A DNA stretch of 45,496 bases from an uncultured Thermoanaerobaculum sp. (lineage in GTDB: Bacteria > Acidobacteriota > Thermoanaerobaculia > Thermoanaerobaculales > Thermoanaerobaculaceae). This document shows positions 19,760-31,592 of the stretch, one piece after another. How positions within the stretch are numbered: position 1 is the stretch's first letter; each line of letters begins with the position of its first letter. The DNA lies in NCBI GenBank assembly GCA_937934115.1, contig CALHAH010000023.1, forward strand, positions 1 through 45,496. The letters are read 5' to 3'. The notes below the pieces were generated by a model that was not told the origin of the DNA, made no database searches, and was given only the letters and a program-made list of their open reading frames with translations. A program made the position numbers and the translations under genes.

Positions 19760-19845
19760 GCCGGAGTGGCGGAATGGCAGACGCGCGGGACTCAAAATCC
19801 CGTGTCCGCAAGGGCGTGTGGGTTCGACTCCCACCTCCGGCACCA
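19760..19845 (+). tRNA. tRNA-Leu (anticodon CAA)
   Basis: The acceptor stem GCCGGAG/CTCCGGC is perfect. The anticodon stem CGGGA/TCCCG encloses the loop CTCAAAA, with anticodon CAA decoding UUG. A long variable arm (TGTCCGCAAGGGCG) is typical of class II tRNA-Leu, and the T-arm GTGGG TTCGACT CCCAC is canonical. The discriminator A and a genomically encoded CCA end are at 19842-19845. Confidence 0.97.
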
Positions 19846-26646: not shown

Positions 26647-28086
26647 ATGAGCGAGTTGAAGCGGGTACGACCGGGGGTTTGGGAGGTGACACCAAGGGGC
26701 GGGATGCGGGTGCCGGCGCGCATATTTGCCACCGAGAAGCTGGTGGAAGCGATCAAAAAAGACCAGTCGGTGCAACAGGCGTGCAACGTGGCCCATTTGC
26801 CGGGAATCGTGAGGGCTTCGCTGGTAATGCCTGATGTGCACGAGGGGTACGGTTTCCCCATTGGCGGCGTGGCTGCTTTCGATCTGAAGGACGGTGTGAT
26901 TTCCCCCGGCGGTGTGGGTTACGACATCAACTGCGGGGTACGCCTCATCCGCACTAACCTCACCGGGGAGGAGCTGCAAGGGAAGCTCAAACAACTGGTG
27001 CATCAGCTGCAGCGGGATGTGCCGGCAGGGGTGGGCAGCGAAGGTGCGATTTTTACGCTTTCGGACCGAGACCTGGACGAGGTGATGGTGAAGGGCGCCC
27101 GCTGGGCGGTGGAGCGCGGGTTTGGTCAAGAAGAGGACTTGGCCTTTACCGAGGCGCAGGGGGCTTTGCCCGAGGCCAAGCCCGAGTACGTCTCGGCGCG
27201 GGCCCGAGAGCGAGGTGCACCCCAGGTGGGCACCCTGGGTTCCGGCAACCACTTTTGCGAAATTCAAGTGGTAGAGGAGGTGTACGACCACGGCGCGGCT
27301 CAAGCTTTTGGTTTGGCTGCGGGGCAGGTAACGTTCATGATTCACTGCGGATCCCGGGGGCTGGGTTACCAGGTGTGCGACGACTTTTTGGATCTCATGC
27401 GCTTGGCCGCCAAAAAATACGGCATCGAGCTCCCCGATCCGCAGCTGGTTTCGGTGCCGGTGAACTCCCCGGAGGGAGAGCGTTACCTGGGAGCCATGCG
27501 TGCTGCTGCCAACTTCGCTTGGGCTAACCGGCAAGTGATTATGGCTCTGGTGGAAAAGGCCTTGGTGCGGGTTTTTGGGGGGGACCGTAATTCGTTAGGC
27601 TTCCGTCTCGTTTACGACGTGGCCCACAACATTGCCAAGGTGGAAGAACACGTGGTGGATGAAAAGAAAAAGCAGGTCATCGTGCACCGCAAAGGGGCCA
27701 CCCGTGCTTTTCCCGCCGGCCACCCGGAAACCCCCGAGCCTTACCGTACCGTGGGTCAGCCGGTGCTCATCCCCGGGGACATGGGGCGCGCCTCCTACGT
27801 TTTGGTGGGCACGGAAAGGGCTATGGCGGAGTGCTGGGGTTCCTCCGCCCACGGCGCCGGCCGCATGATGTCGCGCACGGCGGCCCGTCGCTCCGCGGGC
27901 CACCGCAACTTGGTGAAAGAAATGGGCGAGCAAGGGGTGATTGTGGCGGCACGTTCGCCCAAGACCCTGGCGGAGGAAATGCCCGAGGCTTACAAGGACG
28001 TGAGCTTGGTGGTGGAAGCGGTGGAAGAAGCAGGAATTGCCAAGGCCGTGGCCAAGCTGCGGCCCATTGGGGTGGTGAAGGGGTAG
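26647..28086 (+). CDS. rtcB: RNA-splicing ligase RtcB
   Basis: A 479-residue 3'-phosphate/5'-OH RNA ligase. It contains the Mn-binding signatures MPDVHEGYGFPIGGVAAF (near 60-77) and GGVGYDINCGVRLI (near 88-101), then GSGNHFCEIQ, HCGSRGLGYQV and the GMP-accepting His region SSAHGAGRMMSRTAARR near 400-416. The length fits intein-free bacterial RtcB. No archease gene or RtcR-type regulator is adjacent. It follows addA by 81 nt with its own candidate promoter. It probably repairs cleaved tRNA or other RNA. Confidence 0.95.
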   Translation: MSELKRVRPGVWEVTPRGGMRVPARIFATEKLVEAIKKDQSVQQACNVAHLPGIVRASLVMPDVHEGYGFPIGGVAAFDLKDGVISPGGVGYDINCGVRLIRTNLTGEELQGKLKQLVHQLQRDVPAGVGSEGAIFTLSDRDLDEVMVKGARWAVERGFGQEEDLAFTEAQGALPEAKPEYVSARARERGAPQVGTLGSGNHFCEIQVVEEVYDHGAAQAFGLAAGQVTFMIHCGSRGLGYQVCDDFLDLMRLAAKKYGIELPDPQLVSVPVNSPEGERYLGAMRAAANFAWANRQVIMALVEKALVRVFGGDRNSLGFRLVYDVAHNIAKVEEHVVDEKKKQVIVHRKGATRAFPAGHPETPEPYRTVGQPVLIPGDMGRASYVLVGTERAMAECWGSSAHGAGRMMSRTAARRSAGHRNLVKEMGEQGVIVAARSPKTLAEEMPEAYKDVSLVVEAVEEAGIAKAVAKLRPIGVVKG

Positions 28087-30155: not shown

Positions 30156-31364
30156 GTGAAGCCTTCCTGGCGTTCGGCTTTTCAGGCGTTGCGCCACCCC
30201 GCTTTTCGCCGTTACTGGGTGGGTTGGGCCATTTCGGTTTTAGGCAGCTGGATGCAAACCCTGGCCCAGGGGTGGTTAGTTTTTCGCCTCACCAACTCGG
30301 CGCAAGCGTTGGGCATTCTTTCCGCCCTGCGCTTTGGCCCCTCTCTCTTCGGCTTGCCCTTTGCCGGTGTTCTAACTGATTATTTGCCCCGGCGCAGGCT
30401 TCTTGTGGCCACGCAAAGCGCAGGTATCCTGCAAGCTGGTCTTTTGGCGTTCCTCACCCTCACTGGAGAAGTACGGGTTTGGCACGTTTTTGTCTTGGCT
30501 TTCGTGCAAGGGCTCATTGACACCGTGGACATGCCCGCGCGCCAGAGTTTCCAAGGGGAGTTGGTGCCGGTTTCGGATTTGCAGAGTGCCGTGTCCTTAA
30601 ACTCCACGGTTTTTAACGCGGGCAGGCTCGTAGGGCCGGCATTGGCGGGGTTGGTGGTGGCGGAAGCGGGGGAGGGTTGGTGCTTCGCCTTGAACGCGGC
30701 AAGCTTTGTGCCGTTTCTTTTCGCTGTGATTTCCGTGGAGGAGCGGGCACCGGCAACGGTTGGGCGTTTGGCGGTGATCCCTCAACTTGTGGAGGGCTTA
30801 CGGTTTGCCTGGGAAGAGGCAAGGGTGCGAAGGCTGTTGCTTTCCGTGCTGGTCACCGCCGTGTTTGGAATTTCCCACAGCACGTTGCTGCCAGTCCTCG
30901 CTGGGGTGGTGCTGGGAAGCGACGCTCGCGGCTACGGTTTGCTTTTGGCTGCCTCGGGTTTCGGGGCAATGGTGGGCTCGTTGGCGGTGGCGGCCGTGGG
31001 GAGAAGGCAAGGATTGGTGTTTTGCTCGCAGCTGCTGCTGGGGCTTTCCCTTGGGGTTTTGGCTTTGAGCAAGAGCCTCCCCCTGGCATCTCTTTCACTG
31101 GTGGTGGCCGGACTTTCGGTGGCGGCGCAGCTGGCCACCACCAACGGGTACATTCAAACCAACTCCCCCGACCACTTGCGCGCCCGACTTATCTCGCTTT
31201 ACATTTGGGTTTTTTCCGGAGGAGCACCACTGGGTGGCCTCGTGGCTGGTTTTTTGGCGCAGCACTGGGGTGTTCCCACAGCCATCGCTTTTGCCGCTTT
31301 TCTGTGCGTGGTGGCAGCCTTACTTCAGCTCGTCCCCGGGCGTGATGTAAAATCGCCGCGCTGA
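30156..31364 (+). CDS. MFS transporter (EntS-like MFS_3 family)
   Basis: A 402-residue, probably 12-helix inner-membrane exporter. The N-terminus FRRYWVGWAISVLGSWMQTLAQGWLVFRLT and the loop LTDYLPRRRLLVATQ (the motif A equivalent, D-x-x-x-R-R-x) are typical of the MFS_3/EntS group. DMPARQSFQGELVP is characteristic of the same family. The substrate cannot be told. It starts with GTG 24 nt after rmuC and has no clear ribosome-binding site. Its stop lies 9 nt before the selenoprotein gene. Confidence 0.85.
   Translation: MKPSWRSAFQALRHPAFRRYWVGWAISVLGSWMQTLAQGWLVFRLTNSAQALGILSALRFGPSLFGLPFAGVLTDYLPRRRLLVATQSAGILQAGLLAFLTLTGEVRVWHVFVLAFVQGLIDTVDMPARQSFQGELVPVSDLQSAVSLNSTVFNAGRLVGPALAGLVVAEAGEGWCFALNAASFVPFLFAVISVEERAPATVGRLAVIPQLVEGLRFAWEEARVRRLLLSVLVTAVFGISHSTLLPVLAGVVLGSDARGYGLLLAASGFGAMVGSLAVAAVGRRQGLVFCSQLLLGLSLGVLALSKSLPLASLSLVVAGLSVAAQLATTNGYIQTNSPDHLRARLISLYIWVFSGGAPLGGLVAGFLAQHWGVPTAIAFAAFLCVVAALLQLVPGRDVKSPR
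31348..31353 (+). promoter_or_regulatory. Candidate -10 box of the selenoprotein gene
   Basis: TAAAAT lies inside the 3' end of the MFS gene, 20 nt before the ATG at 31374. It would give a short leader that contains the GAGGGGGT ribosome-binding site (31363-31370). Confidence 0.35.
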
Positions 31365-31373
31365 GGGGGTGCC

Positions 31374-31592
31374 ATGAACGTACGCATCACGTACTGCGTG
31401 GTTTGAAACTACGAACCAAAAGCCGCCAGGTTGGCGGCCTACCTGCAGGAACACCTGGGCGCCAAGGTGGAGCTGGTCAAAGGCTCCGGTGGTGTTTTTG
31501 ACGTGGAGGTGGACGGCCGCCGGATTTTTTCTAAGCATCATGAAGGCCGGTTCCCGGAGCCCGAGGAAATCGTGGCCAAGCTCCGCAGCTAG
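31374..31592 (+). CDS. SelW-like selenoprotein (Rdx family), UGA decoded as selenocysteine
   Basis: Reading through the TGA at 31404-31406 gives one 72-residue protein that begins MNVRITYCVV-U-NYEPKAARL. It therefore carries the Cys8-x-x-Sec11 redox motif at the end of the first beta strand, as in SelW/SelT/SelH-type (Rdx) thioredoxin-like proteins. The rest matches the fold of the family: AAYLQEHLGAKVELVKGSGG, VFDVEVDGRRIFSK and GRFPEPEEIVAKL. ATG 31374 follows GAGGGGGT at 3-4 nt, and the gene ends in TAG. A SECIS-type hairpin lies 15 nt after the UGA. If UGA were a stop, only a 10-residue peptide would be made and 61 codons of well-conserved family sequence would be unexplained. It needs SelA, SelB, SelC and SelD elsewhere in the genome. 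The substrate is unknown; a thiol oxidoreductase role is likely. Confidence 0.88.
31422..31438 (+). promoter_or_regulatory. Bacterial SECIS hairpin in the selenoprotein mRNA
   Basis: GCCGCC (31422-31427) pairs perfectly with GGCGGC (31433-31438) around the loop AGGTT. A further A-T pair would leave a GGT triloop, similar to the AGGUCU loop of the E. coli fdhF element. The loop lies 21 nt after the UGA, within the window known for SelB-binding bacterial SECIS elements. Confidence 0.8.

Follow-up and report, generated by a model that had tools for sequence, protein, structure and literature searches.

A SelW-like selenoprotein gene, very probably decoded through an in-frame UGA, in an uncultured Thermoanaerobaculum sp.

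An in-frame TGA within what otherwise reads as a small redox protein raises the question of whether the frame is a broken gene or a gene whose UGA is decoded as selenocysteine (Sec). We addressed this question for a locus of an uncultured Thermoanaerobaculum sp., located in a contig of 45,496 nucleotides that was analyzed at its full length (the window) and that belongs to a draft genome of 2.42 Mb, 96.7% complete. The features of the locus are as follows:

31363-31369, plus strand: possible ribosome binding site GAGGGGG, 5' of the ATG, proposed by sequence inspection and identical in the nearest relative (L005)
31374-31592, plus strand: predicted gene for a selW-like (Rdx family) selenoprotein of 72 aa with Sec as residue 11; the stop codon is TAG, 31590-31592
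31395-31406, plus strand: C-V-V-U redox motif (TGC GTG GTT TGA), which fits the C-x-x-C/U motif of Rdx
31404-31406, plus strand: UGA codon (codon 11) predicted to be read as selenocysteine; TGA is present there in 68/68 aligned relatives
31421-31439, plus strand: SECIS-like hairpin that can be drawn with a 6-bp stem (GCCGCC/GGCGGC, 31422-31438) closing the loop AGGTT (31428-31432) or with a 7-bp stem closing GGT

The frame comprises the ATG at 31374 and nine further codons, the TGA at 31404-31406, 61 codons and the TAG. Its read-through product of 72 residues (MNVRITYCVVUNYEPKAARLAAYLQEHLGAKVELVKGSGGVFDVEVDGRRIFSKHHEGRFPEPEEIVAKLRS) aligns the in-frame TGA exactly with the second redox residue of the C-x-x-U motif. 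In profile searches, for which the TGA was read as Sec and entered as Cys, Pfam Rdx (PF10262) matched residues 2-71 of the product (E = 2.3e-20; 73 bits, cut-off 22.6), and the product also exceeded the cut-offs of the NCBIfam model NF041051 for SelT/SelW/SelH (seleno)proteins (96.4 bits vs. a curated cut-off of 88) and of TIGR02174 (CXXU_selWTH; 64.2 bits vs. 34.2). These Pfam and NCBIfam scores uphold the original prediction of a 72-residue Rdx/SelW protein with a single TGA at the second redox position. The source genome contains one Rdx gene. Standard gene calling had been said to miss or truncate it, and indeed no standard ORF of at least 60 aa in this frame appears in the program-made ORF list, while plain ORF calling yields the 10 residues up to the UGA.

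In bacterial Sec decoding, SelB binds a hairpin and brings Sec-tRNA(Sec) to the UGA. The locus almost certainly represents this mechanism, that is, a SelW-like (Rdx family) bacterial selenoprotein whose UGA is decoded as Sec via SelB and the downstream hairpin. The ribosome would reach the UGA at codon 11, SelB with Sec-tRNA(Sec) and GTP would be recruited by the hairpin, which starts approximately 15 nt past this codon, and selenocysteine would be inserted at the UGA. The product would be a thioredoxin-like protein of 72 residues whose redox motif is C-V-V-U. Residue 11 is probably Sec; binding of SelB to the putative SECIS element is predicted by analogy, and what is known of the family suggests a thiol/selenol redox role via a Cys8-Sec11 selenenylsulfide.

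Published rules for bacterial SECIS (bSECIS) elements include a loop of 3-9 nt, a stem of 4-16 bp, a G in the first two loop positions, a spacing of 16-37 nt and a minimum free energy (MFE) of -7.5 kcal/mol or lower (PMC13188914). The candidate hairpin satisfies every one of these constraints: it begins about 15 nt downstream of the UGA, its loop begins 21-22 nt after the TGA, and the 48-nt segment that contains it has a fold energy of -13.0 kcal/mol. The outer pair 31421-31439 is A-C in this gene and is paired in most relatives. To obtain a synonymous null, the downstream peptide was recoded 5,000 times, and a stem of at least 7 bp arose in 12% of the recodings and an energy as low in 25%, so that the hairpin is not significant in the single sequence. 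Because these recodings equal it, the hairpin in one sequence is weak evidence, and this result counts against the preferred reading. The original claim of a hairpin at the right distance therefore stands as far as its presence and its fit to the bSECIS rules are concerned, but the hairpin alone is not significant against synonymous recodings. Since the single-sequence null gave no significance, comparative evidence was sought.

Across 60 aligned sequences, standard pairs occupy 93% of the pair cells. Compensatory-change cells numbered 21, vs. 5.3 expected from shuffles, and none of 500 shuffles reached as high a value; relatedness among the sequences remains in these figures, so they are not probabilities. 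Controls with slid partners were far lower. At pair 21-33, the combinations C-G, G-C, U-G, G-U and U-A all occur among relatives, and loop position 2 is an invariant G. Codon choice at the apical position is also constrained when compared with a background for which the longest open frames next to the genes were used: Ser is encoded by AGT in 23/23 sequences (background 7%), and Gly is encoded by GGC in 0/31 class sequences (background 39%). By these comparisons, the putative SECIS element is conserved across relatives: it shows compensatory changes, its loop is strongly constrained in synonymous codon use, and the significance of the hairpin comes from this conservation, not from the single-sequence test. 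The selenoprotein could be genuine and the 31422-31438 hairpin incidental to GC-rich Ala codons, with SelB using something else, which would agree with the synonymous null for this sequence alone (p 0.12-0.25); however, the compensatory changes and the synonymous constraint in both loop and stem across relatives make this very unlikely.

Two further observations concern the hairpin in relatives. In most class members with Ser-18 (TCC) instead of Ala (L075, L083, L091, L092 and L094), a U-C mismatch interrupts the stem at its middle (columns 22/32 of alignment A1), a point against SelB-dependent decoding through this hairpin; their flanking pairs and loop are retained despite the mismatch. In SelW homologues of the YCVPUDYS type (L066-L071 and L073, from Actinomycetota and Armatimonadetes), the hairpin is placed differently (e.g., CGCGC-CGTGA-GCGCG) and starts about 14-15 nt after the start of the TGA, apparently as a second SECIS arrangement.

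The TGA itself is conserved. It is found at the codon aligned with residue 11 in 50/50 aligned full-length class members and in 18/18 further homologues (on named contigs of Planctomycetota, Myxococcales, Verrucomicrobia, Actinomycetota and others). An Rdx match was present in 52 of 60 relatives, nearly all containing exactly one TGA, and no Cys form of SelW was seen among the Thermoanaerobaculia class members searched. A draw of 199 genomes from the phylum gave Rdx in 63, with a TGA-containing match in 59 and a stop-free full-length match in four, these counts referring to the presence of a TGA within the match and not to its position case by case. Comparison of the sequence 3' of the TGA with two same-genus genomes gave dN/dS values of 0.09 and about 0.05 (0.053), the second being near synonymous saturation. 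Judged by these ratios, purifying selection acts strongly on the part that follows the TGA. Sister species keep both the TGA and this part, so that the original prediction is not refuted.

A Sec-decoding system had also been implied, and selA, selB, selD and a tRNA-Sec with a UCA anticodon were all found in the source genome, so that neither selB nor selC is missing and the Sec-decoding trait is complete in one genome. Profile searches located selA (C34:1095-2372; 455 bits), selB (C30:22259-23344; 304 bits; open frame of 668 aa) and selD (C10:50234-51154; 350 bits; one internal TGA, in the motif CAGUAAK), each above its cut-off. The tRNA-Sec gene (C35:36697-36791) scored 78.9 bits with the Rfam model (cut-off 47), was called SeC with anticodon tca (UCA) by ARAGORN, and has a long acceptor stem (GGAAGCGCA/TGCGCTTCC). 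Because the Rfam model cross-hits other long-arm tRNAs with lower scores and the selB model weakly matches other GTPases, only the top match of each was counted. Through the TGA in CAGUAAK, selD (L095) is a second selenoprotein gene of this genome. The best selD matches of another family of the same order (f2) have no TGA, and Sec and non-Sec SelD therefore alternate within the order. A search of the source genome for a TGA-interrupted molybdopterin oxidoreductase found none.

These results bear on two other readings. Suppression of the UGA with insertion of a standard residue such as Trp or Cys is formally compatible with a selW product known here from its DNA, but the reading has next to no probability given the conservation in relatives, the presence of selA, selB, selC and selD with a UCA-anticodon tRNA-Sec, the occurrence of TGA only at the redox position, and the like use of TGA by SelD. 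A pseudogene, in which a once Cys-containing Rdx gene was broken by a nonsense TGA, would account for the in-frame stop but is refuted, and just as improbable, because all aligned relatives, in the class and in other phyla, share the TGA at this codon, selection 3' of it is strongly purifying, and the Sec machinery is present.

When the whole window was scanned for further frames that would read through a TGA and have a SECIS-like hairpin, five more candidates emerged (24545, 28487, 44394-, 38361- and 17829-). We treat these as chance occurrences, because none of the four scanned had a Pfam match and candidate 28487 is another frame inside an acyltransferase gene.

The position of selW between an MFS exporter and nadK, as originally described, agrees with the profile matches of its neighbors. 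The start codon lies 9 nt past the stop of the upstream gene, which resembles MFS efflux families (E = 4e-54), and the downstream gene resembles NAD kinase (E = 5e-65), both under the strict equivalog cut-off. A same-genus genome (G001) shares the arrangement of an MFS gene, selW and an ORF of NAD-kinase size, as judged from the lengths and locations of its ORFs. The apparent near fixation of Sec SelW in Thermoanaerobaculia, together with the nadK linkage in the genus, might reflect a partnership with a lineage-specific NADPH-dependent redox pathway, a speculative idea that we consider unlikely. Elsewhere in the window, positions 26647-28086 encode an RtcB-family RNA ligase, which scores best in NCBIfam with the model for intein-containing RtcB (best stretch, profile positions 578-961) and apparently has no intein. 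The only tRNA of the window is a tRNA-Leu (CAA) at 19760-19845.

Our searches of the literature retrieved no paper that deals with Sec in Thermoanaerobaculum itself. The original prediction overrated the novelty of the gene: NCBIfam models exist for the family, and a 2006 table of bacterial selenoprotein families lists SelW-like proteins, for which Sec-using organisms had very few Cys homologues, if any (PMC1794560). In Campylobacter jejuni, full-length translation of SelW past the Sec UGA has been confirmed by Ribo-seq and proteomics (PMC11955535). Since the family is an established one and SelW of full length has been demonstrated in C. jejuni, the gene is a further case of a known kind.

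With SelW-like selenoproteins (PF10262, TIGR02174 and NF041051; e.g., SelW of C. jejuni), it has in common the size, the C-x-x-U motif, the UGA with a downstream hairpin and profile scores above the cut-offs. It differs from the C. jejuni-like members in its host, a Thermoanaerobaculum-like member of Acidobacteriota, in its location between an MFS gene and nadK, and in being known from its sequence. Its loop is AGGTT, whereas the bSECIS elements of relatives commonly have GGTCT or AGTTT/AGTCT. Sequence comparison (E = 3e-8 to 4e-6) puts the solved Rdx structures 2fa8, 2oka, 2ojl and 2obk in the same family; they are distant relatives and presumably carry Cys at the second redox position, where the selW product would have Sec. 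Nothing departs from the known SelW-like kind, and the gene is real but ordinary. It provides a clean, checkable example of a selenoprotein gene lost by plain ORF calling, useful for annotation, and leaves the understanding of Sec decoding unchanged.
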